A stretch of 64,000 bases of DNA from Rhizobium sp. ACO-34A (GTDB taxonomy: Bacteria; Pseudomonadota; Alphaproteobacteria; Rhizobiales; Rhizobiaceae), in assembly GCA_002600635.1 (NCBI GenBank), contig CP021371.1, positions 2,235,001 to 2,299,000 on the forward strand, written 5' to 3'. Below are positions 15,489 to 64,000 of this stretch, piece after piece. How positions within the stretch are numbered: the stretch's first letter is position 1; each line of letters opens with the position of its first letter. The translations under genes and the position numbers were made by a program. Under the pieces are notes generated by a model. That model was not told the DNA's origin and made no database searches. It saw only the letters and a list, made by a program, of their open reading frames with translations.

Positions 15489-16160
15489 TCAATTGAGTTT
15501 TGCAAGCGCTTCGGATTTCATTCTCGCAATATCACGCAATGCATTGACGAGCACGTCAGGCGTCTGGGCGCCGCTGACCGCATATTGCTGGTCGAAGATG
15601 AAGAACGGTACGCCGTTGACACCCATTTGCCGGGCTGCGTCGATTTCGCCGACGACTTCCGCCTTGTCGGAATCGCTTTCCAGCAGCTGCGCGATCACGG
15701 TGCGATCAAGACCTGCCGATTCGGCGATATCAGCCAGGACGGCCTTGTCCCCGACGTTGCGACCCTCTTCGAAATTGGCCTTGAACAGCGCGGATACGAC
15801 ACGTTCCTGCACCTCGCGTCCTTCGACGCCGGCCCAATGGATCAGACGGTGAGCGTCAAGTGTGTTCGGTCCAACCTTGATCGCCTCGAAATTGAAGGCG
15901 ATGCCGACTTCGCGACCGAGCGCGCTCAGCTGCTCATGGCCTCGATCCATATTGGCCTTGCCGCCGAGCTTTTTTGCGAGCTCGACCTGCTGGTCCACAC
16001 CTTCCGGCGGATAGTCGGGATTGAGCTGGTAGGGGCGCCAGTTGATGTCCACGCCGATCTCGTCCTGTACCTCGGCGATTGCGAGGTCCAGCCTTGCCTT
16101 GCCAAGGTAGCACCAGGGGCAGACGACGTCGGAAACGAGGTCGATGGTGATACGCAGCAT
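15489..16160 (-). CDS. DsbA-family oxidoreductase (FrnE-like)
   Basis: A 223-residue thioredoxin-fold protein starting MLRITIDLVSDVVCPWCYLG. The active site is C-P-W-C (residues 14-17), as in the FrnE/2-hydroxychromene-2-carboxylate isomerase-like group. No signal peptide is present, so it acts in the cytosol, perhaps as a disulfide isomerase or reductase under stress. The longer open frame adds 20 residues, but the ATG at 16160 has a good AAGGAA ribosome site and starts where homologues start. It lies upstream of the EamA gene on the same strand. Confidence 0.87.
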   Translation of the reverse strand: MLRITIDLVSDVVCPWCYLGKARLDLAIAEVQDEIGVDINWRPYQLNPDYPPEGVDQQVELAKKLGGKANMDRGHEQLSALGREVGIAFNFEAIKVGPNTLDAHRLIHWAGVEGREVQERVVSALFKANFEEGRNVGDKAVLADIAESAGLDRTVIAQLLESDSDKAEVVGEIDAARQMGVNGVPFFIFDQQYAVSGAQTPDVLVNALRDIARMKSEALAKLN

Positions 16161-53485: not shown

Positions 53486-53575
53486 GGATGGGTGGCCGAG
53501 CGGTTTAAGGCACCGGTCTTGAAAACCGGCGTAGGTGAGAGCCTACCGTGGGTTCGAATCCCACCCCATCCGCCA
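53486..53575 (+). tRNA. tRNA-Ser(UGA)
   Basis: A 90-base class II tRNA with encoded CCA. The acceptor stem GGATGGG pairs with CCCATCC, the anticodon loop CTTGAAA carries TGA between CCGGT/ACCGG, a long variable arm follows, and the T arm is GTGGG-TTCGAAT-CCCAC. Its 3' end overlaps the antisense end of the serine recombinase gene, and the element beyond it begins here, so it serves as the integration site. Confidence 0.98.
53543..53575. other. Candidate attachment site (attL) in the tRNA-Ser 3' end
   Basis: The recombinase reading frame enters the tRNA gene antisense, and its last ten codons plus the TAG stop are encoded by tRNA sequence. That places the junction between chromosome and element within or right at the tRNA 3' end. 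A duplicate of part of this segment should be at the far end of the element, outside the window. Confidence 0.65.
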
Positions 53576-55192
53576 CTTCGGTACAAAACCGGGAACGCCG
53601 ATTCCCGCCGACTTCCCTCCTTTAGCGGCCACAAGTGTCCTCAACAGGGTGCCTTTGCTCCCTTTGATGTAGATTGCGTCGTCGGCGACCTCGACGCGCT
53701 GGGCGAAGGCCCGGACGTGATCCCGCCGATAGCCGCCCTCTACGAGACGAAGCCGGCTGCGCGCCTCGGTCGCCAGTTCCCGCACCGCCGCGCCCGTGAG
53801 GGCGTTGTGTGTCGAGCTTTGGAGCATGGCTTCGATCCGGGCGGCGTCGGCCCGCGCCTGATCTCGAATCGCCGTGAGACCGGCAATGCGCTCGGAAAGG
53901 GCAGATTCGGCCGGATCGAGCGAACCCGCCTCGATGGCGTCGTAGAGACGATTGAGGCGGTGATCGGCCTCGGTCGCGCGCTGGCGCAACTCCCCAATAT
54001 GCTGGCTGCGCCGCTCGACGCCTTCCTGCCGGCGATCCAGAAGCGAGGCGAGCACGACTTCGATCCGCTCGGGGTCGAGAACCCGTTCCTCAAGATGAGC
54101 CACTACCATGCGGTCCAGCTTGTCCATGGGGATCGCTCGGCCCTTGCAGCCGATTTCGCCCTGTCGCGCCTTGATGGAGCAGGCATAGTAGCGATAGCGG
54201 CCGTTCTTGCCGGTGCGCAGCGTCATGGCCCCGCCGCACTTGCCGCAGTAGCAGATGCCGGTGAGCAGGTTCGGGCTACTGACGACGCGCGGCGGCGTCA
54301 CCTTCGGGTTGCGAGCCTGCAAGCACTGCTGGATAACCTCGAACGTCTCAAGGTCGATCAGCGGCGGCACCTGGACGGTGACGACTTCCTCCTTGGGTTT
54401 CAGCTCCTTTGCCTTGGAGCGCATGTTGAACTGATGCTCGCCGATATAGGTGCGCCGCGTCAGGACGCGATGAAGCTGACCGATGCCCCAACGTCCACCG
54501 TTGCGGGTCATGATGCGGTTTTTGTTCAGGTGATTGACGATAGCCTTCACACCCAACGGGCCGGAGGTGCCGTCGCCTTCCGACGCAAGGCGGAAGATCA
54601 GCCGCACGGTGTCGGCGTGCAGCGGGTCGATTTCCAGCTTCTTCTTGATCTTTGCGCCGCGCTGCTCGGCATCGACGACGCGATAGCCGATGGGCGGCAG
54701 GGAGCCGTTCCAGAAGCCTTGCCGGGCATTCTCCTTCAAGGCGCGCAGGACGTGCTTAGCGTTCTCCTTCGACTGGTATTCGTCGAAGAGCGACATGATC
54801 CGCCGCATCATCTGGTGGATCGGATCGTCACCAAGCTCCTGCGTCATGGAAACGAGCTTGACGCCGTTCTTCGCCAATTTCCGGTAATAGTATTCCATCT
54901 CAAATTCGTCGCGGAAGAAGCGCGAGAAGCTGTGAACCACGACAATATCGAAGGGCGCGGGCTTGGACGTGCCTGCCTCGATCATGCGCTGGAACTCCGG
55001 GCGCTTGTCATTCGTGGCCGACGCGCCCGGTTCAACAAAAGTCTCCACGAGATGATACCCGCGTTCCTGGCAATACGCCTCGCCCTGCCGCTTCTGGTCG
55101 GGGATCGACACGTCATGCTCGGCCTGTCGCGCCGTCGAGACGCGCAGGTAGAGGGCGGCGCGCACAGCGACATGAGGGCTCTGGATGTTCAT
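53543..55192 (-). CDS. Large serine recombinase (integrase)
   Basis: A 549-residue recombinase. The N-terminal resolvase domain (about 10-160) contains the nucleophile Ser19 in YLRVSTARQ. The recombinase domain (about 170-280) and the zinc ribbon (CYCGKCGG ... YYACSIKARQGEIGC, about 315-350) follow, then a coiled coil used to control integration direction. The last residues, WRMGWDSNPR, come from antisense tRNA-Ser sequence. The start overlaps the TumA-like gene by 4 bases. It likely catalyses integration and excision of the element at the tRNA-Ser gene; a separate directionality factor is not identified here. Confidence 0.93.
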   Translation of the reverse strand: MNIQSPHVAVRAALYLRVSTARQAEHDVSIPDQKRQGEAYCQERGYHLVETFVEPGASATNDKRPEFQRMIEAGTSKPAPFDIVVVHSFSRFFRDEFEMEYYYRKLAKNGVKLVSMTQELGDDPIHQMMRRIMSLFDEYQSKENAKHVLRALKENARQGFWNGSLPPIGYRVVDAEQRGAKIKKKLEIDPLHADTVRLIFRLASEGDGTSGPLGVKAIVNHLNKNRIMTRNGGRWGIGQLHRVLTRRTYIGEHQFNMRSKAKELKPKEEVVTVQVPPLIDLETFEVIQQCLQARNPKVTPPRVVSSPNLLTGICYCGKCGGAMTLRTGKNGRYRYYACSIKARQGEIGCKGRAIPMDKLDRMVVAHLEERVLDPERIEVVLASLLDRRQEGVERRSQHIGELRQRATEADHRLNRLYDAIEAGSLDPAESALSERIAGLTAIRDQARADAARIEAMLQSSTHNALTGAAVRELATEARSRLRLVEGGYRRDHVRAFAQRVEVADDAIYIKGSKGTLLRTLVAAKGGKSAGIGVPGFVPKWRMGWDSNPR

Positions 55193-55587
55193 CGCCGGCC
55201 TCCCGCCGCCTTCCGAGGCTCCGCGCGGTCGATCAAGGGCAACACCAACTCCACCCGGTCATGGACGACCTTGGGCGCAAGCTTGCGGCCCTGACCCTTC
55301 TCCAAGCGAACAAGGCCATAGCTCTCCATCGTCTTCATGGTGCGAGACAGGTTGGATATGGCCCGGCCGGTGATCTCGGCGAGTTCCTCCAGCGAGCCCG
55401 GCGCTTTCTCGGCGATGATACGCAGCAGCTCGCGGTTCTCGGTGGAGAGAACCTGGGCAAAGGATTTTGTGGAGGTGAACCACACTTTCGGATCGCCCGG
55501 CGCTGGCTTTTCCTCGCCGCGCGCGATCCGCATGGTGCGGGCTTTCATTTCTTCGTAGTCGGCAATCCCGACTTTCAGTGTGGTCAT
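55189..55587 (-). CDS. TumA-like antitoxin (MarR-type winged helix)
   Basis: A 132-residue DNA-binding protein starting MTTLKVGIADYEEMKART. The winged helix (about residues 58-105) contains GSLEELAEITGRAISNLSRTM, with wing LEKGQGRKLAPKVV. The family (HVO_A0114-type putative DNA-binding proteins) is regularly found next to TumE-type toxins as the probable antitoxin and autorepressor. A much longer open frame is unlikely because its first 89 residues are antisense-like Arg/Gly-rich sequence overlapping tumE. Its ATG overlaps the tumE stop by 4 bases, and its stop overlaps the recombinase start by 4 bases. Confidence 0.8.
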   Translation of the reverse strand: MTTLKVGIADYEEMKARTMRIARGEEKPAPGDPKVWFTSTKSFAQVLSTENRELLRIIAEKAPGSLEELAEITGRAISNLSRTMKTMESYGLVRLEKGQGRKLAPKVVHDRVELVLPLIDRAEPRKAAGGRR

Positions 55588-55937
55588 AGCACGCCTCGCT
55601 CCTTCAACACCGCGTCCACCGCCTGCCAGAAGTCGGCCAGCAGCGTGGCCGCGTCCTCGTAGGCGTAGGGCTTCACGGTCTGGAGGCGGTGCCGGTGGTC
55701 CAACGGCTTGCCGCGCCTGCCCCGGCCGACCGGATGGGCGTTGTCGAAGCCGACCAACCGTTCGCCCGAAGGCCCGTGAAGCGTGAGCGAGTAATCGAGG
55801 CCGTGCGGCTTCTCCGACGACGCCGGAACGCGGGTGACGATGAACTTCACCCAATGGCCGCCCTCGGGATCGACAACGAGCACCTGACTGTCGAGGTCCA
55901 GAAGCGTGTCGAGGCTCGGATCACGATCCTCGCTCAT
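55584..55937 (-). CDS. TumE-like toxin (formerly DUF6516 type)
   Basis: A 117-residue protein matching the TumE toxin family as I recall it: a beta-rich core (SQVLVVDPEGGHWVKFIV, HGLDYSLTLHG, RLVGFDNAHPV), a histidine-rich turn DHRHRLQTVKPYAYE and a C-terminal helix ATLLADFWQAVDAVL. The His/Arg cluster and the PYxYxDAxxLLxDFW segment are the visible signature. The toxin target is not stated here. It sits between the 105-residue unknown gene and TumA-like antitoxin, with 4-base overlaps on both sides. Confidence 0.78.
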   Translation of the reverse strand: MSEDRDPSLDTLLDLDSQVLVVDPEGGHWVKFIVTRVPASSEKPHGLDYSLTLHGPSGERLVGFDNAHPVGRGRRGKPLDHRHRLQTVKPYAYEDAATLLADFWQAVDAVLKERGVL

Positions 55938-56251
55938 GGCTTTTTCTTATCACTTGCTGATAAGAAATTCAAACCCTTTTCGGGGTCGTTGATAGGGCCG
56001 AACAGGCGGTCGAGCACATCGCCGAAGTAGCGCTCGAAGATGTCGATTTCTTCCTCGGTGATCGGCACCTTCTCCGGCCAGTCGTCGAAGACCGGCAGCT
56101 TCTCCACATCGAAGGCGTCGGGCGGACTTCCGCGCGGCGTGCCGAAGCGCGGCGTGGGTTCGTCATCGTAATCATAGAGGTCATCGGGGAGTGTCTTCGG
56201 GATGGGCTGTCGAGGGCGTCCTTTTCGGACGCGACGGCGCTTCGCGCACAT
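55934..56251 (-). CDS. Unknown 105-residue protein heading the TA-recombinase operon
   Basis: The start ATG 56251 follows a strong GGAGGA ribosome site. The N-terminus is very basic (MCAKRRRVRKGRPRQP), the middle is Pro/Asp-rich, and the C-terminal 50 residues are acidic and probably helical (ITEEEIDIFERYFGDVLDRLFG). No known domain is recognised. Its stop overlaps the tumE start by 4 bases, so the three small genes and the recombinase are translated as a chain. It could bind DNA at the attachment site, or be a third TA component; both are speculation. Confidence 0.7.
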   Translation of the reverse strand: MCAKRRRVRKGRPRQPIPKTLPDDLYDYDDEPTPRFGTPRGSPPDAFDVEKLPVFDDWPEKVPITEEEIDIFERYFGDVLDRLFGPINDPEKGLNFLSASDKKKP

Positions 56252-56412
56252 GGAATCCTCCGTGGTTCGTTGCTGGATTCCGGGCGGCTGGAAGCCCGGA
56301 ACTAGGCGAACCTTGGAGGGCAATCGGCGGCCTGTAGCGTGCCGCATTTGCGGCTACACGCTGGCGGCACCCCCTGCTATCGGTGATGCGAAGACGGATT
56401 TGCAGAGGAGAG

Positions 56413-57342
56413 CTACCCTACGCTTCCGGCAAACCGCTCGGCTAGGCGGCCCCGTTTGAACGCCTCCGCAACCAGATCAACGAACGTTCGCGTCTTGGCC
56501 GGCAGGAGTGTGCGCGAGGCATAATAGAGCGAAATCGCTCCCGCATCGGAATACCAACGCGGGAGGAGGCGAACGAGGCTGCCGTTCTCAAGCTCTGGCA
56601 ACACGTCGGGCACCGCGAGCATCGCCACACCGAGGCCGAGCCTTGCGGCCTCGCGCATCGCGGCCGGGTCATTGACCACGATCTTTTCGGGCAACGTCGC
56701 CATCATTTCGGCTCCCGCTGCGTCCCGCATTGCCCAATGACGGATGCGGCCGGTCCTGAGTGAGCGCATGACGATTCCGTCGAAGTGCGATAGCCCGGCC
56801 GGATCGGTCGGCGGTGTGTGCTCCGCCATGTAGGCAGGCGACGCCACGGCGACGATGTGGGCGGGTGCCAGCGTCCGGGCGACGATGCCCGGAGCAAGAT
56901 CGAAGCCCCCGCCGATCGCTACGTCATAGCCCTCGGCGACAAGATCGACCGGGCGGTTCTCGAAATGCCATTCCGGCCGGATGAGCGGGTATCGGCGCAA
57001 GAGTTCCGGCAGCAGTGGCAGGATGTGAGTGACGCCGAAGGTGGGGCTGAGGCTGACCTTCAGCACGCCCGCCGGCTCGGATGCACCGGACGAGGCATCG
57101 GCGATAGCCGCTTGTAGGGCGTCGAGATTGCCGCCGATCGACTGGAGAAAGCGTTCACCAGCCTCGGTCAGCATGAGCTTGCGGGTGGAGCGCTGGAACA
57201 GCCGCACGCCAAGGTTCCGCTCCAGCATCGCCACGTTGCGGCTGACGGCGGCCGGGGTGAGTGCCATGCGCCGCGCCGCCTCCGAGAAGCTGGAGGTTTC
57301 CGCGCTTTTGACGAAGCTTTCGAGGTTGGCCAGCGTCTCCAT
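56413..57342 (-). CDS. LysR-family transcriptional regulator
   Basis: A 309-residue LTTR. The N-terminal winged helix (METLANLESFVKSAETSSFS, recognition helix RRMALTPAAVSRNVAMLE) and the C-terminal ligand domain (about 90-290, with VSLSPTFGV) are clear. It is of the CrgA-like group common among redox and quinone-responsive regulators. It is divergent from an SDR gene, with a 5-base-arm palindrome between them, so it most likely controls that gene and itself. The ligand is unknown. Confidence 0.9.
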   Translation of the reverse strand: METLANLESFVKSAETSSFSEAARRMALTPAAVSRNVAMLERNLGVRLFQRSTRKLMLTEAGERFLQSIGGNLDALQAAIADASSGASEPAGVLKVSLSPTFGVTHILPLLPELLRRYPLIRPEWHFENRPVDLVAEGYDVAIGGGFDLAPGIVARTLAPAHIVAVASPAYMAEHTPPTDPAGLSHFDGIVMRSLRTGRIRHWAMRDAAGAEMMATLPEKIVVNDPAAMREAARLGLGVAMLAVPDVLPELENGSLVRLLPRWYSDAGAISLYYASRTLLPAKTRTFVDLVAEAFKRGRLAERFAGSVG

Positions 57343-57359
57343 ACTTCTTTCAACGATCG

Positions 57360-57376
57360 CTTGAAATCAGATCAAG
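57360..57376. promoter_or_regulatory. LysR-type operator (T-N11-A) between lysR and SDR genes
   Basis: CTTGA-N7-TCAAG with perfect 5-base arms (57360-57376), embedding the TTGA-N7-TCAA/T-N11-A pattern of LysR binding sites. It sits 18 bases from the lysR start and about 73 bases from the SDR start, a normal activator position. Confidence 0.6.
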
Positions 57377-57448
57377 AGATTACTCACTAATCGGAAGGAA
57401 ATAAACAGGCCATCTTCGCTCCATCGAAACGCAAACGGAGTGAAGACA

Positions 57449-58201
57449 ATGACCAACACCACCCATTCCCTGACCGGCAAGGTCGCTCTCGTCACCGGCG
57501 GCTCGCGCTCGATCGGTGCGGCCATCGCCAGGAAACTCGCCGCCGATGGTGCGGCAGTTGCCATCACTTACAGCGCTTCGCCCGACAGGGCCGCCCAGGT
57601 CGTCGCCGACATCGAGGCGGCAGGCGGCAAGGCCATCGCTATCGCGGCTGACGCCGGCAGCCCCGAAGCCGTTCGGGGTGCTGTGGCTCAGACCGTCTCG
57701 GCCTTCGGCGGCATCGACATCCTCGTCAACAATGCCGGTGTAGCGGTGAACGCCCCTATCGAGGACTTCAAGTTCGAAGACTATGAGCGGATGATCGCCG
57801 TCAACGTCACCGGCGTTTTCGTCGCCACCCAGGAGGCGGTGCGGCACATGACGCCGGGCGGGCGCATCATCCATATCGGCTCGTCCATGACGCGCTATGC
57901 GGCGTTTCCGACCGCCTCGGTCTATACGCTGACCAAGGGCGCGATCACCGGCTTCAACCGCAGCCTCGTGCGCGACCTCGGCCCGAAGGGCATCACCGTC
58001 AACACGGTCCATCCTGGCCCTACCGATACCGACATGAACCCGGCAGACGGCCCGGTGGCCGCCATCGTCGGCCCCGGCATGGCGATCGGCCGCTACGGCC
58101 AGCCCGCCGAGATCGCCAGCGTCGTCGCCTTCCTCGCCAGCCCTGATGCCGCTTTCGTCACAGGCGCGGACATCGTTGCCGACGGCGGTCTGACTGCCTG
58201 A
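57449..58201 (+). CDS. Short-chain dehydrogenase/reductase (SDR)
   Basis: A 250-residue NAD(P)-dependent oxidoreductase of the classical SDR type. Cofactor motif TGGSRSIGAAIA (about residues 16-27), the NNAGVAV segment, catalytic Ser in GSSMTRY, and YxxxK in VYTLTKGAI are intact. It resembles 3-oxoacyl-ACP reductase-like alcohol dehydrogenases, but the substrate is open. ATG 57449 follows CGGAG. It is read away from the LysR gene and followed 36 bases later by the reductase-like gene. Confidence 0.92.
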   Translation: MTNTTHSLTGKVALVTGGSRSIGAAIARKLAADGAAVAITYSASPDRAAQVVADIEAAGGKAIAIAADAGSPEAVRGAVAQTVSAFGGIDILVNNAGVAVNAPIEDFKFEDYERMIAVNVTGVFVATQEAVRHMTPGGRIIHIGSSMTRYAAFPTASVYTLTKGAITGFNRSLVRDLGPKGITVNTVHPGPTDTDMNPADGPVAAIVGPGMAIGRYGQPAEIASVVAFLASPDAAFVTGADIVADGGLTA

Positions 58202-58237
58202 TCCCCCTGATACTCGAACCTTTGAAAGGACTCTGCC

Positions 58238-58840
58238 ATGAACAGCATCGGCATCATCGGCGCTGGCAATATCGGCCGCGCCTTCGCAACGGCTCTTGCC
58301 AACAACAACATCCGCGCCACGCTTTCCAACAGCCGTGGCCCGGACAGCCTGAAGGATGTGGTCAACGCCATCGGCTCGACAATCGAGGCCGGAACCCGTG
58401 AGGAAGCGGCGTCGAAGGACATCGTGCTCGTCGCAGTCAACTGGTCGAAGCTTCCGGCGGCGCTCGCCGGCCTGCCGGACTTCGGCGGCCGCATCGTCAT
58501 CGACGCCAACAATCCGATCGAAGCGCCGCTGTTCAAGCCCGCCGAACTCAATGGCCGGCTTTCAAGCGAAATCTTCGCGGGTCTTGTTCCCGGCGCGCGC
58601 GTGGTCAAAGCCTTCAATCACCTGCAACCGCACCTGCTATCGGGCGATCCGCGCGCCGAAGGTGGCCGCCGTGTGTTGTTCTATTCTGGCGATGACGCCG
58701 GATCGAAGGCCGAGGTCGGTGCGCTGATCGACCGGCTCGGCTTCTTCGGCATCGACCTCGGGCCGATCTCGGTCGGCGGACGCCTCGTCCAGTTCCCCGG
58801 TGGACCGCTTCCGGCGCTTAACCTCGTGAAGTTCGACTGA
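58238..58840 (+). CDS. NADPH-dependent F420 reductase-like oxidoreductase
   Basis: A 200-residue protein with an N-terminal Rossmann motif GIIGAGNIGRAFATAL (residues 4-19) and a helical C-terminal half, the fold of NADPH:F420 reductases and related dinucleotide enzymes. In bacteria without F420, members use NADPH with other substrates. With the SDR and the LysR regulator it forms a small redox cargo block on the mobile element. The 147-base gap after it ends at convergent DUF2274. Confidence 0.82.
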   Translation: MNSIGIIGAGNIGRAFATALANNNIRATLSNSRGPDSLKDVVNAIGSTIEAGTREEAASKDIVLVAVNWSKLPAALAGLPDFGGRIVIDANNPIEAPLFKPAELNGRLSSEIFAGLVPGARVVKAFNHLQPHLLSGDPRAEGGRRVLFYSGDDAGSKAEVGALIDRLGFFGIDLGPISVGGRLVQFPGGPLPALNLVKFD

Positions 58841-58987
58841 TCGCACGTTGCCCTTCGTATGAACACATCTTCTCCCAGCCGGCAGCCAAGATCTTGGAGG
58901 GCATGGCCGCCTCCCGAAAAAGTTGGCGCTATACGATCGACTTTTTGCGACAAGCTGAACCACCGTCCAGCGTTCTACATCGGCCCT

Positions 58988-59230
58988 TTAAGATGATGAT
59001 TTCACGACTGGGCTCGTTTGCCGCCGTGCCTTGGCGAAGCCCCGATCCGTGGCGATGAATCGCTCCAACATGGGCGCGATAAGACGCACGGGGTCGGCGG
59101 CGGGCTGGCACGTCTCGCGGGCTAGAACTTCGGCGTAAGCGACAAGATCGCGGTGGAGCGGCGCGGGCAGCTCCACCGTCACCTTGACGGGCTTGTCGTC
59201 GGGGATCGGGCCGAGTTTTAGCTTTGCCAT
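58988..59230 (-). CDS. DUF2274 protein of the trb cluster
   Basis: An 80-residue protein of the DUF2274 family, which is nearly always located next to trbI in Tn4371-like conjugative elements. The core VTVELPAPLHRDLVAYAEVLARE and the PVRLIAPMLERFIATDRGF segment (in pieces here) suggest a ribbon-helix-helix or small helical fold. It starts 2 bases after the trbI stop. It may be a regulator of the tra operon, but this is not shown. Confidence 0.8.
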   Translation of the reverse strand: MAKLKLGPIPDDKPVKVTVELPAPLHRDLVAYAEVLARETCQPAADPVRLIAPMLERFIATDRGFAKARRQTSPVVKSSS

Positions 59231-59232
59231 GG

Positions 59233-60384
59233 TCAGCCTCCGTAGGGTTCGAGGACAAGATCGCGTGTAACCACAATCATGACTGGGAAGCCCGGCCGGA
59301 TGGTCAGCGTCGGCGCGACATTGAGCTGGCGGCGGATGATCTGCTGGCCGGCGTCGTTGATGGTGTCCTGGCCGCCATTGCGGATGGCGCTCAACAGACG
59401 GTCATCGTCATCGACGGCAAGTTCGGCCCCTACCGAGAGCAGCGTCGAGAGGCCGGCGGCCTTGGCCAAATCCCACCAATGATAATCGACGCCATCCTCC
59501 AGGCCGGCATAGCCCTGTGCATCCGAGCCGGGTTGCCGCTCCAGAACGATGGAACGTCCATTCGGCAGAATGAGGCGATTCCAGACGAGCAGGACGCGGC
59601 GCTGACCGAACTGCACGTTGTTGTCATACTGGCCGATGATCCGCGTGCCCTGTGGGATCAGGAGCAGGTTGCCGGTCGGACTGTCATAGACGCTTTCCGT
59701 TACCTGCGCCGTGATCTGCCCCGGAAGATCGGAGCGTATGCCGGTGATGAGCGCTGCCGGGATGACTGCTCCGGCCTGGAGCACGAAAGGCGATGCCGGC
59801 GGCATCACGCGATCTGATGCCGTGGTGCGCCGATCAACGGGCGCATTGAGAAAGGCGGCTTGCCTGTCCTGCGCGGTCTGCTGGCCGGGCTGCCCTGTCA
59901 GGCCCGCGAGGTCGAGGCCGGGCATGGTCGAACCGCTCGATGCTCCGGTTGGGCTCCCGGTGCGTGCCTCGGTCTGGAAAAACACGCGGCTGACGCGCGC
60001 GGCTTCCTCTTCGGCTACGCGGCGCTGCTCCGCCGCGTCCACCGTGGGGGTCGTCATCGTCGGCGGTGCGACGGGCTGACCTCTGTTCTGCGCGCCCAAG
60101 ATAGGGCGGCCGAGGTCGCCTGGAAGCGGCGGTCCCAGGACCGGCCCGGTATAGTCGCGCGGCAGGCCCGCGAGCCCATCGGCGGTTTGCCGGTTGTTGG
60201 TCGAGTAGAGTTCTTCGCCCCCCGCGTCGCCGTCGCGGGTCTGGAGAGCATAGATCAGCGCGCTCCCGATACCGACCAGCGCGACGGCCGTCACGCTGGC
60301 GAGCACCTTGCGGGACAGGCGGGTGACGCGCGGCGGCTCGGCGCGAAGCCTCATCGGCGCTACGTTGGTTTCGGTATCGGTCAT
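59233..60384 (-). CDS. trbI: Conjugal transfer protein TrbI (VirB10-like)
   Basis: A 383-residue protein of the type IV secretion channel. One N-terminal transmembrane helix (about 27-47) and a long Pro/Thr/Gln-rich periplasmic stretch precede the conserved VirB10/TrbI domain (about 190-383), with FVLQAGAVIPAALITGIRSD and LLIPQGTRIIGQYDN. It links the inner and outer membrane parts of the channel. It overlaps trbG by 4 bases in the order trbL-trbF-trbG-trbI. Confidence 0.95.
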   Translation of the reverse strand: MTDTETNVAPMRLRAEPPRVTRLSRKVLASVTAVALVGIGSALIYALQTRDGDAGGEELYSTNNRQTADGLAGLPRDYTGPVLGPPLPGDLGRPILGAQNRGQPVAPPTMTTPTVDAAEQRRVAEEEAARVSRVFFQTEARTGSPTGASSGSTMPGLDLAGLTGQPGQQTAQDRQAAFLNAPVDRRTTASDRVMPPASPFVLQAGAVIPAALITGIRSDLPGQITAQVTESVYDSPTGNLLLIPQGTRIIGQYDNNVQFGQRRVLLVWNRLILPNGRSIVLERQPGSDAQGYAGLEDGVDYHWWDLAKAAGLSTLLSVGAELAVDDDDRLLSAIRNGGQDTINDAGQQIIRRQLNVAPTLTIRPGFPVMIVVTRDLVLEPYGG

Positions 60385-61337
60385 GACGATGGCCTCCCGT
60401 CCGCGCGGACAATCCTGACGGTCTGCTGGCGCTCGCCGCTGCCAAGGCGCAGCTCGGCCGCGCCGAACAGGCGGTCCACGATCAGGATGTGTTGGTGAAT
60501 GCGGCTGTTGACGATCTGCGCCTCGCCGTCCGCGCCGAGAACGAAGATGGGCGGCATCTCGCCCTGCACGACGCCGCGCGGGAACTCGACATAGACCCTG
60601 CGGCCATCGTCATAGACCGCGACCGGCTTCCACGGCGGATTGTCGCCGGTCAGGCCATAGCGATAGTTGCGCGCGGCGACGGCCGGGATGACCGGCGTGG
60701 CAGGCACGCTCTGGCGCTGCCCGGCCGGCGGCTGCGGATAGGCCCAGGCAACGGCGGGCATATAGGGGGTCTCGCCGGAACGCAGCTCCAGCATGTAAAC
60801 GCGGCGGTCGGTCGTCACGACGAGATTGGTCGTGATGTCCGGCCGGGTCGGTTTGACGAGGATGTGGACGCGGCGCGCAATGCCTGAACCGGATTCCGTG
60901 TCGCCGATGATCCAGCGGGCGGTGTCGCCCGCCGCAATCGGTCCCGCGCCGGTCAGGCTCTCTCCGGGCTCCAGAGCGATGTTGGTGATCTGCCCAACGG
61001 CAGCATAGACCTGATAGAGCGCGCCTTCGCTCCACGGGTAAATCTGGATCGAATTGTAGTAGCCTTCACGGCGCGGCTGGACGCGGGCCGCCGCATTGGC
61101 GTTCTCGACACGAGCGGTCGGCGTGCCGGCAGCCGTGCCACCGCGCGCAACCGTCCAAGCAGGCGGGACATGCAATGGCCGCGGCCGGTCGTCGGTGACG
61201 GCCGCGGGCACGGCCGGCAATGGCGGCACGTTGGCGTCGTAGCCGATCTGCGGCGGTTTGTAAGTTGCGCAACCCGCAAGCATGGTCGCCGACAGCAGGA
61301 CAACCGCCAGTGCGGACGTGTGGGTCGTCGCTCTCAT
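60381..61337 (-). CDS. trbG: Conjugal transfer lipoprotein TrbG (VirB9-like)
   Basis: A 318-residue outer-membrane-associated protein. ATG 61337 gives a lipoprotein signal (TMLAGC, lipid-attached Cys23) and overlaps the trbF stop by 4 bases, so the longer frame is rejected. The VirB9/CagX domain (about 90-310) has IQIYPWSEGALYQVYAAVGQ and PKPTRPDITTNLVVTTDRR-type segments (KPTRPDITTNLVVTTDRR). It forms the outer ring with TrbI. Confidence 0.94.
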   Translation of the reverse strand: MRATTHTSALAVVLLSATMLAGCATYKPPQIGYDANVPPLPAVPAAVTDDRPRPLHVPPAWTVARGGTAAGTPTARVENANAAARVQPRREGYYNSIQIYPWSEGALYQVYAAVGQITNIALEPGESLTGAGPIAAGDTARWIIGDTESGSGIARRVHILVKPTRPDITTNLVVTTDRRVYMLELRSGETPYMPAVAWAYPQPPAGQRQSVPATPVIPAVAARNYRYGLTGDNPPWKPVAVYDDGRRVYVEFPRGVVQGEMPPIFVLGADGEAQIVNSRIHQHILIVDRLFGAAELRLGSGERQQTVRIVRADGRPSS

Positions 61338-62023
61338 TGGCTCATCTCCCGCGACCATGAAATTGCATTGACGTAGATGCCGAGCGGATTGGCGCGCAGC
61401 CGGTCGGCGTCGCGCGGCGGCTGGATGACGATGGTCAAGATCGCGGTCCATCGTTCAGTCGTGGAGAGCTGGCCATTCTCGTATCGCCGTTCGGTCCAGG
61501 CGACGCGGAAGGAACCCGGCGAGGCGCGGATGACGCTCGATACCTCAACGGCGATTTGCTCCTTCCCGACCTTGGTGAACGGGTCGTTGGCGCGGGCATA
61601 GTCGTTGAGCGCCGCCGCGCCCCGGTCGGTCGTCCACTCGTAGGCGCGTAGCCAGTTCTGCCGGACAATGATCGGATCGGCGGGGATGCTCCTGACCTGC
61701 TCAATGAAGCGGCCGAGATGCCACGCCACCTGTGGGTCGGTCGGGCGATAGTTGGCCGTGGCCGGCGCGACGGTCTGCGCCTGGCCCATGCGATCCACCT
61801 GAACAACCCACGGCACGACGGTCCCGCGCGCCGACTGCCAGACAAGGGCGGCGGCGAAGCCGGCTGAAAGGATCAGCGATCCGAAGGCCATGTATCGCCA
61901 GTTCTTCGCCTGCACGCGGGCCGAGCCGATCCGCTCGTCCCAAACCTGCGCGGCGCGCTGGTATGGTGTTTCGGGTTGTGGGGTCTTGCCGTAGTGCACG
62001 GCGGGTCGTTTGAAGATGCTCAT
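61334..62023 (-). CDS. trbF: Conjugal transfer protein TrbF (VirB8-like)
   Basis: A 229-residue inner-membrane protein of the T4SS. It has an N-terminal cytosolic part with YQRAAQVWDERIGS, one transmembrane helix (about 45-62), and a VirB8-like periplasmic domain with RPTDPQVAWHLGRFIEQVRS. It overlaps trbL and trbG by 4 bases each. Confidence 0.94.
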   Translation of the reverse strand: MSIFKRPAVHYGKTPQPETPYQRAAQVWDERIGSARVQAKNWRYMAFGSLILSAGFAAALVWQSARGTVVPWVVQVDRMGQAQTVAPATANYRPTDPQVAWHLGRFIEQVRSIPADPIIVRQNWLRAYEWTTDRGAAALNDYARANDPFTKVGKEQIAVEVSSVIRASPGSFRVAWTERRYENGQLSTTERWTAILTIVIQPPRDADRLRANPLGIYVNAISWSREMSQ

Positions 62024-63378
62024 GAACGATCACTTTCGGAGAGGTTGACGGAAGAGCCGGAGCCATGGCTGTCGCCGGAACGGACGGCGTGTGCGGCGGT
62101 CTGGACGGCGTGCCCCATGTGGCCGCCACGGCGCATTCGCTGCGCCCAGGCGGGCGGCGTGCCGGAAGCCTGCGAGGATGCGGACGCGGCCTCGGCCGCG
62201 CCGCTGGCCGATCCCGTGGAGGACGTGCCGCCGCTCGCGCCGAATCCGGCCTTTACGCCATCGGAGAAGCTGGACTTGACGCTTTCAGAGGCGCGCGCGA
62301 CGGCGCGCTTGAGGGGCGAGACAGCGGCGGAGCCAGCCGCACGCGCCACGCCGCCCATGCCGGAAGCGACGCCAGCCGCGCCGGACTGGCCGAGCGAGCC
62401 GAGGCTGTAGGCGGCGGAGGCTGCGCCGGCCGCTGTCGCGCCACCGCGCACGGCGGCGACTCCACCTGACAACGCGGCAGCGCCTCCCTTGACGGCAAGC
62501 CCGGCCGCGCCGCCTGCGGCAAGCGCTGCGCCGCCAACGGCAAGGCCCGTGCCGACGGCCGCGCCGGCGCCGAGCTGTGGGCCGCCGCTGACAAGGCCGG
62601 ACGCGATGCCGGGGCCGAAGATGCCAAGGCCGACGAGCGACAGCGCCGCGAGCACGATGGCCATTGCGTCGTCTATACTCGGGGTCTGGCTGCCGAAACC
62701 TCGCGTGAACTGGCTGAACAGCGTCGAGCCGATGCCGACAATGACTGCGAGCACCAGAACCTTGATGCCGCTGGAAATCACGTTGCCCAGCACGCGCTCG
62801 GCCATGAAGGCGGTCTTGCCGAACAGGCCGAACGGGATCAGCACAAAGCCGGCCAGCGTGGACAACTTGAACTCGATCAGCGTCACGAAAAGCTGGATCG
62901 CCAAAATGAAGAAGGCGAGAATGACGAGCGCCCAAGCGAAGAGCAGGCACGCGATCTGGATGAAGTTCTCGAAGAATGCGATCCAGCCCATCAGGTTGGA
63001 AATAGAGTCGAGCAGCGGCCGTGCGGCGTCGAGCCCGGTTTGCGCCACCTTGCCGGGCCGCATCAAATCCTGTGCGGTGAAGCCGGTGCCGGAGGCTTTC
63101 AAGCCCAGGCCGGCGAAGCTGTCGAAGACGATCTTCGCGAGATTGTTCCAGTTGCCGATGAGATAGGCGAAGACACCGACGAACAGCGTCTTCTTCACCA
63201 ACCTCGCAATGATGTCGTCATCCGCGCTCCAGCTCCAGAACAGGGCCGCAAGCGTCACGTCGATGACAATGAGCGTGGTGGCGATGAACGCCACCTCGCC
63301 GCCGAGAAGCCCGAACCCGCTGTCGATGTAGCGGGTGAAGGTGCCGAGAAAGTTGTCGATGACGCCCGCGCCGCCCAT
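62020..63378 (-). CDS. trbL: Conjugal transfer protein TrbL (VirB6-like)
   Basis: A 452-residue polytopic inner-membrane protein. The N-terminal 300 residues have about six helices, beginning IDNFLGTFTRYIDSGFGLLG. The C-terminal 150 residues are low complexity, rich in Gly/Ala/Ser, as in other TrbL proteins, and probably cytosolic. It is thought to build the inner channel. It overlaps trbF by 4 bases. Confidence 0.94.
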   Translation of the reverse strand: MGGAGVIDNFLGTFTRYIDSGFGLLGGEVAFIATTLIVIDVTLAALFWSWSADDDIIARLVKKTLFVGVFAYLIGNWNNLAKIVFDSFAGLGLKASGTGFTAQDLMRPGKVAQTGLDAARPLLDSISNLMGWIAFFENFIQIACLLFAWALVILAFFILAIQLFVTLIEFKLSTLAGFVLIPFGLFGKTAFMAERVLGNVISSGIKVLVLAVIVGIGSTLFSQFTRGFGSQTPSIDDAMAIVLAALSLVGLGIFGPGIASGLVSGGPQLGAGAAVGTGLAVGGAALAAGGAAGLAVKGGAAALSGGVAAVRGGATAAGAASAAYSLGSLGQSGAAGVASGMGGVARAAGSAAVSPLKRAVARASESVKSSFSDGVKAGFGASGGTSSTGSASGAAEAASASSQASGTPPAWAQRMRRGGHMGHAVQTAAHAVRSGDSHGSGSSVNLSESDRS

Positions 63379-63381
63379 GCG

Positions 63382-63669
63382 TCACCGCCCTTCACTGGAG
63401 GATGGCGATGCGGGCGCAGGCGTCCGGCCGAGAAAACGGTCACGGGTTTCGGCCCAGACGCGCAGGCATTCGGCGTCATTGGCGGCCTGCTGCCCAAGCT
63501 GCTGGCAGCGGCGCTGCCCCTCGCGCAGCGGATCGCGTTCGGGCTGGAGAAGACGGGCCGGCGTCTCCAGCGGCGCGTCGTCCTTGCGGGTCATTTCGAT
63601 GGCGGTCGCCGTGATGGCGATGGCCACGAATACGATTGCGCCCAGCCGGGCCAGCATCTTGCCGTCCAT
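63382..63669 (-). CDS. Putative entry exclusion protein TrbK-like
   Basis: A 95-residue protein with one N-terminal transmembrane helix (LGAIVFVAIAITATAIEM) and a soluble domain with two cysteines (RRCQQLGQQAANDAECLRVWAE). It matches the TrbK-alt type found between trbJ and trbL in Tn4371-like elements. Entry exclusion stops redundant transfer between cells with the same element. It lies 3 bases from trbL and 10 bases from trbJ. Confidence 0.82.
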   Translation of the reverse strand: MDGKMLARLGAIVFVAIAITATAIEMTRKDDAPLETPARLLQPERDPLREGQRRCQQLGQQAANDAECLRVWAETRDRFLGRTPAPASPSSSEGR

Positions 63670-63679
63670 AGCCGCGCCC

Positions 63680-64000
63680 TCAGTTGCCGTTGTTGAACAT
63701 CTGCGCGTTGCCCGGCTGGTAGCCCGAGCCCGGCGTCAGGAAGCGGCGTCGTTGTTCGCGTCCCTGTTCGGCGGCGGCGGCGCGCTCCGCCTCGGTCAAC
63801 GCACCGGCCCGGCCGTTGGCGGCGAGCAACGCGATCAGGTCGGAAAGCTGCTGCGATTGCAGGGCGAGAAGCTGGTTGCCCGCCTGCGCCGCCTGCAACG
63901 CGCCCGACGCCCCTTGGCTCTGGCCGACAAGCTCCGACATCTGCGTGCGGTTGGTGTCGATATTGCCGACGACGCCAGCCTGTACCCGCATCGCGTCCTG
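63680..64000 (-). CDS. trbJ: Conjugal transfer protein TrbJ (3' part)
   Basis: The C-terminal 106 codons of TrbJ, open to the window edge. The visible part is a Gln/Ala-rich coiled-coil helix (QMSELVGQSQGASGALQAA, LLALQSQQLSDLIALLAA) ending FLTPGSGYQPGNAQMFNNGN, the normal TrbJ end. TrbJ is a VirB5-like component with a signal peptide expected upstream. The gene order trbJ-trbK-trbL-trbF-trbG-trbI is the Tn4371 type. Confidence 0.9.
   Translation of the reverse strand, partial: QDAMRVQAGVVGNIDTNRTQMSELVGQSQGASGALQAAQAGNQLLALQSQQLSDLIALLAANGRAGALTEAERAAAAEQGREQRRRFLTPGSGYQPGNAQMFNNGN

Follow-up and report, generated by a model that had tools for sequence, protein, structure and literature searches.

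Results

A large serine recombinase gene ends inside a tRNA gene

The window analysed here is a 64-kb stretch of the Rhizobium sp. ACO-34A genome (G000:C1:2235001-2299000), and the only tRNA gene that ARAGORN detected within it is a tRNA-Ser with the anticodon TGA. The features at this locus, in window coordinates, are the following.

53486..53575, plus strand: tRNA-Ser(UGA), the integration target (ARAGORN, TGA anticodon; flank and tRNA are common to the empty-site relative G019)
53543..53569, minus strand: tRNA-encoded tail MGWDSNPR and stop codon TAG of the integrated recombinase (ORF reading)
53546..55192, minus strand: large serine recombinase, integrated form, 549 aa (ORF with stop 53543-55192; Pfam domains, PDB relatives)
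53570..53575, no strand: core CCGCCA common to attL and attR, with TGG CGG as the recombinase codons W-R (comparison of attL, attR and the empty site)
53576..64000, no strand: left part of an element of about 45.2 kb that continues to C1:2333820 (empty site in G019)
55189..55587, minus strand: winged-helix protein (HVO_A0114-like), 132 aa (Pfam on the longer ORF; start chosen by reading ORFs)
55584..55937, minus strand: TumE-like or DUF6516-type small protein, upstream of the winged-helix gene (Pfam TumE, 3.5e-8)
59233..63378, minus strand: trb-type conjugation genes, namely TrbI, CagX/TrbG, VirB8/TrbF and TrbL (Pfam)

The 549-codon ORF (53543-55192, minus strand) enters tRNA-Ser from the 3′ end of the tRNA and terminates as W-R-M-G-W-D-S-N-P-R-TAG, its last 33 nt (53543-53575) being tRNA sequence. 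ARAGORN and the ORF reading thus bear out the first-pass annotation, which had described a recombinase reading antisense into tRNA-Ser(UGA), with its final WRMGWDSNPR and TAG supplied by the tRNA. The encoded protein is a large serine recombinase, since it carries the Resolvase, Recombinase and Zn_ribbon_recom domains, all three above the Pfam cut-off; its PDB relatives by sequence include SPbeta integrase and the TP901-1 catalytic domain. The winged-helix gene and the recombinase start overlap by 4 bp, and the winged-helix protein is a candidate directionality factor or regulator. The TumE-like, winged-helix and recombinase genes (55189-55937 region) are joined by 4-bp overlaps each, and this gene order is repeated in loci L175 and L176, where a DUF6516 gene occupies the equivalent position.

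An empty site defines both ends of the element

Comparison with a close relative lacking the element, as the first-pass annotation had proposed, located both element ends. In G019, of the same genus, the flank is 92% identical over 976 bases and tRNA-Ser is unoccupied; its sequence matches our chromosome at the tRNA and then again from 98815 on the window scale (83% over 1.5 kb). This places the element, about 45.2 kb long, at C1:2288576-2333820, with its far end beyond the window, and the tRNA is chromosomal except for the shared core. The sequences attL and attR have just 6 bp in common, CCGCCA, the tRNA 3′ terminus. A core of 6 bp is short for a tRNA-targeting element and ordinary for a serine recombinase.

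The duplicate of the tRNA 3′ segment that had been anticipated on the far side therefore exists as these 6 bp and not as any longer copy. A search of the chromosome with the 25-nt tRNA end, allowing up to 3 mismatches, gave no match at the far end of the element; its matches were the site itself and, elsewhere on the chromosome, three further ends resembling tRNA-Ser. A long tRNA-end repeat at the far side was rejected, as searches found none.

The element also encodes TraG, above the cut-off, and an RlxS-type relaxase at 675 bits, under the curated cut-off of 850. With defined ends, conjugation genes, a coupling protein and a relaxase, it is, by gene content, an integrative conjugative element. 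Among its cargo beyond the window, a GajA-like ATPase/nuclease gene adjoins a GajB-like UvrD helicase gene (L024:4615-7775), and the two may form a Gabija-type defence pair.

The far end of the element encodes a second C-terminus

When read in frame from the core, the far end of the element encodes another tail, WRAGSDETENYVYAIALQNGT followed by a stop (translation of C1:2333755-2333820, outside the window), and the recombinase gene therefore seems to have its own 3′ end stored on the other side of the integrated element. After K-W-R, the attL frame gives MGWDSNPR and a stop, and the mapped attR gives AGSDETENYVYAIALQNGT and a stop; the excised circle is predicted to join the recombinase body to the latter. 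The earlier suggestion that protein tail and stop could differ between the integrated and excised forms is thus upheld at the level of prediction. It had also been supposed that the circular form would be completed by whatever the junction happens to supply; the stretch is, rather, a conserved one, present in most of the relatives examined. Because the attachment site lies inside the integrase gene, insertion should swap this conserved end for an antisense-tRNA peptide. We regard this anatomy, with attP inside the recombinase gene and the native tail stored at the far end, as nearly certain from the compared sequences.

Three stored tails were found in the genome of the window, at G000:C1:2332246-2332314 and 2333755-2333820 (L024:14246-14314 and 15755-15820) and at C2:377342-377396. 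The first two are separated by 1.5 kb at the element's right end, with two genes between them that we take to be DUF2867-like and HxlR-like, and they look as if a small recombinase-less segment had docked there; excision of the element could use either copy. The same genome has a second, distant serine recombinase (L002, G000:C1:4118268-4119578), which reads antisense into tRNA-Met in another frame.

The tRNA overlap is a family trait

Named relatives were taken as the best 80 of 554 loci from a scan of named genomes, and the counts in this section refer to these 80 unless stated otherwise. An antisense tRNA was present at the equivalent place in 69 of the 80, in the same codon frame in all cases (69/69), and for this reason the overlap between recombinase and tRNA is more than chance. 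The 69 targets comprised tRNA-Ser with the anticodons CGA (20), TGA (20), GGA (19) and GCT (6), together with tRNA-Arg (3) and tRNA-Glu (1). A tRNA-Ser target, which had been considered less usual for a large serine recombinase, is hence the norm in the family of this enzyme (65 of 69 tRNA targets). Two of the 69 loci, L124 and L135, have frame-broken recombinases. L002 was excluded from the family count because of its tRNA-Met and different frame, and no tRNA lies in the stretch examined for two other nearby serine recombinases (L061 and L064).

The 11 loci without a counted tRNA consisted of three cut by a contig end and eight without a complete tRNA adjoining the element (L072, L076, L081, L089, L094, L115, L117 and L140). 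In several of these eight the element opens with a piece of a tRNA-Ser 3′ end, roughly 14-35 nt long, before the sequence diverges, a hint that the site needs little of the tRNA.

W-R was found at the core in 78 of the 80 named loci, and the W is invariant across the 52 proteins of alignment A3. The alignments A3, A4 and A5 contain 41, 41 and 28, respectively, of 48 usable loci, two Brucella loci having been excluded. More distant relatives enter other tRNAs in the same frame, namely Ser-GGA, Arg-CCG (twice), Asn, Arg-ACG and Leu; for S. meliloti pSymB the tRNA is Arg-CCG, and for a Sphingomonas plasmid it is Thr. The core varies with the target, being TGGCGC with the tRNA-Arg target in G023, and from the cores seen it seems that the core chooses the target.

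Stored tails occur in most recombinase-bearing genomes

With the right end of our element as a DNA query, tails were reached in 11 of 20 genomes, and two right ends used as DNA queries gave matches in 24/49 and 33/49 genomes. Tails were then sought in 58 other recombinase-bearing genomes of the named loci (best 80 of 554), with a peptide motif as the filter: a homologous tail was present in 47, and in the remaining 11 no motif tail was recovered with the queries used. The motif search likewise yielded no tail in four distant relatives (G098, G012, G028 and G085). A stretch reading WCTGGDDGGNWHTIVYLYA, chosen by eye from a list, lies at G098:C1:4061803 (L334), in an A73-type relative, 9.6 kb from the recombinase, and has 11 nt in common with the tRNA-Arg end; it is a possible stored tail.

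Thirty pairs of a tail and a recombinase on one contig were listed by hand from 27 loci, using best hits and some second hits and leaving out at least one second hit (G128:C1:2163034, for L092, far away). In 26 of these 30 pairs the tail shares the strand of the recombinase and lies on the far side, the exceptions being L072, L097 and the second hits of L117 and L092. The distance from tail to recombinase is 3.8 to 70 kb, and once 197 kb.

As a control, the same two queries matched 10/100 and 4/100 relatives, our own genome included; 8 of these 100 relatives carry the recombinase at E <= 1e-60. Since 7 of the 10 tail-bearing relatives have no recombinase at this threshold, tails also occur alone, and we read such recombinase-less tails as leftovers of elements. 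In G034 (C1:244336-244390, L358), a stop-broken stored tail lies about 2 kb from the same tRNA-Ser with no recombinase, and is probably the leftover of an older element.

These distributions bear on whether the tails are interchangeable, that is, whether any C-terminus after W-R works and the stored tail is merely the ancestral gene end. Among 67 tRNA-tailed loci (best 80 of 554), between 8 and 393 residues follow W-R before the stop, with a median of 36, and a very variable end is therefore tolerated in the integrated state, as interchangeable tails would allow. A dispensable stretch of 15-20 codons should decay, yet the tail is recognisable in 47/58 genomes and persists in an element with a recombinase of just 50% identity. 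We consider interchangeability unlikely.

Coding constraint on the stored tail is moderate

The motif set contained 55 tails from 83 places; because selection by motif and minimum length makes an open frame certain, coding counts were taken from an unfiltered set of 60 distinct tails collected by DNA similarity. Over 51 nt (17 codons), a stop occurred in 2/60 tails in the recombinase frame, compared with 48 and 46 in the other two frames. The synonymous share of single-base codon differences in the 60 tails was 0.426, against 0.275 after column permutation, with 7 of 300 permutations as high (relatedness uncorrected). Each half by itself gave a weak coding signal (16/200 for nt 25-51 and 40/200 for nt 7-24, again uncorrected for relatedness). 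We consider the coding constraint on the stored tail to be moderate.

The same data allow the far-end sequence to be read as an attP DNA arm bound by the recombinase and conserved for that reason only, its coding look being a by-product and the tail playing no part as protein. The core and first codons are necessarily part of attP, the first 18 nt of the S. meliloti tail described below are identical to the tRNA side at 16 of 18 positions, and the weakness of each half alone would fit such an arm. Against it stand the frame, open in 58/60 distinct tails, and the synonymous excess over the whole tail; in the motif-filtered set, moreover, the best-kept residues (Y11, Y13, I15 and L17) lie far from the core, and similarity to the tRNA end beyond the core is near background (0.33 for nt 7-24 and 0.31 for nt 25-51, with a shifted background of 0.27). 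A purely DNA-level role is accordingly very improbable in our estimate, and the likely arrangement is a half-site in the DNA close to the core, continuing into coding sequence.

The tail ends are variable: 32/60 distinct tails stop after residue 17 and 26/60 extend with various residues, our own stored tail with QNGT. This variability bears on a further alternative, in which the native tail is a degradation tag that limits the recombinase in the circular state and is removed by integration, stabilising the protein. The tail (ENYVYAIAL) recalls tmRNA tags, that of its own genome being ANDNNAKGYALAA, and a state-dependent ssrA-like tag is known from phage BPs (PMC4557955). The resemblance is slight, though, no common C-terminal end exists among the 60 distinct tails, and the use of a stabler integrase after integration is unclear. 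A tag seems improbable to us, fitting the variable tail ends less well than a role of the tail in full activity for integration.

An independent filled/empty pair and an unbroken gene

A second filled and empty pair was found in S. meliloti. In strain ml21 a tRNA-Arg of pSymB holds an element whose recombinase has 50% identity with that of the window; in ml66 and other strains the site is empty, and the match starts at the first core base. The tail at the filled left junction of ml21 reads WRAREDETGHSYVIVAPIHF and then stops; the element spans about 38.6 kb, the core is TGGCGC (6 bp), and flank identity is 99.85% and 100%. Behind TGGCGC in G023 (tRNA-Arg), the tail WRAVSGDDENYVYAIAL is found 59 kb away, and G079 has the tail WRAATDSDDHYVHAIALR at a distance of 29 kb.

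An unbroken gene with a native tail was present at L238, on a contig of the genome that contains L083 (an Azospirillaceae MAG), where NSVPTQGLK at the end of the body is joined directly to WRATTDDDEHYVYAVAL and a stop. No tRNA was found on the L238 contig, and the unbroken gene may represent a tandem junction or a circle. The same join of body and tail recurs in L234, a broken recombinase, and in L208, a short remnant.

Matches among plasmid and phage records numbered 16 and 15, respectively; none of the six examined was a natural circular form. Four of the six end in tRNAs (Arg, Ser, Asn and Thr) and two in other DNA. The latter, L175 (pKPC_CAV1176, Enterobacter hormaechei) and L176 (pBH3a, Brevundimonas), have neither a tRNA nor a native tail at the end, and their recombinase copies lie near insertion sequences or resistance genes. 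In 20 close viral-contig copies, W-R was present in 16 and the native tail in none. The natural C-terminus, used as a query against 385 genomes of the class, gave matches in 5, none of which extended to the tail end.

Structure models of the two tails

Models of a native tail and of a tRNA tail were obtained with AlphaFold2 from different proteins, L238 and the window recombinase, respectively. The L238 model matches structures of the SPbeta and Bxb1 integrases; it shows disorder over residues 519-536 and a strand at residues 540-546, in the native tail (pLDDT of the last block, 62). In the window protein, residues 526-549 have a pLDDT under 50 and the tRNA tail has no structure. The comparison gives a weak indication that the native tail comes back to the body as a strand. 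The tail lies outside the range of the known structures, whose alignment reaches about residue 515. The window model also has long helices at 374-421 and 430-459 that fit the coiled coil of large serine recombinases.

Discussion

Our best explanation for the locus as a whole, to which we assign a probability of roughly 80%, is a recombinase gene split by its own integration, with the native tail kept for the enzyme of the circular form. The site attP would lie inside the recombinase coding sequence at the W-R codons, usually about 15-20 codons before the native stop. A conjugating circle entering a cell would make recombinase with the native tail, and attP would then recombine with the CCA end of a tRNA gene, splitting the recombinase gene. 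From then on the integrated body would read into the antisense tRNA, and the native tail (WRA..DETENYVYAIAL..) would lie silent at the far end, 45.2 kb away in the present element. Two C-terminal isoforms, one per DNA state, are expected from this split. The integrated isoform might be weaker or dependent on a helper protein, and excision would rest on the tRNA-tailed isoform, perhaps with help from the product of the adjoining upstream winged-helix gene.

The tail persists across wide divergence even though most copies seen are integrated, so it is probably used in the circular state. That the enzyme of the circular form requires it, most probably for integration, which then removes it, is a proposition to which we give even chances; the simplest use of the native tail would be full activity for integration. 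More tentatively, the tail might be a built-in state sensor, the enzyme with its native, strand-forming tail being competent for integration and the antisense-tRNA tail placing it in a held or excision-only mode.

Among the closest known parallels is DsiB of the Dehalococcoides ssrA islands, whose gene invariably overlaps attL and lacks a stop codon within the island; its authors considered that it is perhaps fully functional only on the circle or beside an island with a 3′ fragment, and found the tail divergent (PMC3146451). Both systems combine a CcrB-type large serine recombinase, a CCA-ended RNA gene, an attL overlap and a stop outside the element. Unlike the present element, the DsiB system targets a tmRNA gene (ssrA) and has a second, small serine recombinase, DsiA (PMC3146451); the genes directly upstream of the window recombinase are winged-helix and TumE-like by Pfam. 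Whereas the DsiB tail was divergent (PMC3146451), the far end of our element holds a conserved in-frame tail.

In archaeal suicidal (SSV-type) integrases, too, the site lies inside the integrase gene and integration, often at a tRNA, splits it, but these are tyrosine recombinases whose catalytic domain becomes separated and whose halves are called inactive (PMC8371274); the window enzyme is a serine recombinase in which only the last 15-20 residues change. Phage BPs likewise has attP in a coding gene, and integration alters the C-terminus of the protein and acts as a switch; there it is the repressor that changes (from 136 to 103 residues), with an ssrA-like tag as the switch (PMC4557955), whereas here attP lies in the recombinase. 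Serine recombinases in the same bacterial class include that of the Paracoccus phage Pami6, in tRNA-Met (PMC6536676), and those of the Mesorhizobium ICE/IMEs (PMC8627217); the portions of both papers available to us describe no tail exchange and, for Mesorhizobium, do not name the sites of the serine elements. The open-licence literature searched, as far as its texts were accessible, held no report of a stored conserved tail beyond the remark on DsiB. What the present family adds to the known systems is thus, at the level of sequence, a conserved, stored C-terminus in a broad group of bacterial serine recombinases.

How large serine recombinases separate integration from excision is a central question, and these enzymes serve as genome-engineering tools. 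A natural family in which integration itself alters the C-terminus of the enzyme permits a direct test of directionality. Database copies of the family are mostly integrated and carry tRNA-derived ends instead of their own C-termini, and enzymes made from such records may therefore lack a part. The stored tail can also be used to locate where such elements end on the far side, for which there is otherwise just a 6-bp repeat. For the elements themselves, the tail swap may allow different forms of the enzyme when the element is free and when it is inserted, and if the tail is indeed a state sensor, direction would be partly set, across a widespread mobile-element family, by the isoform that the DNA state permits.
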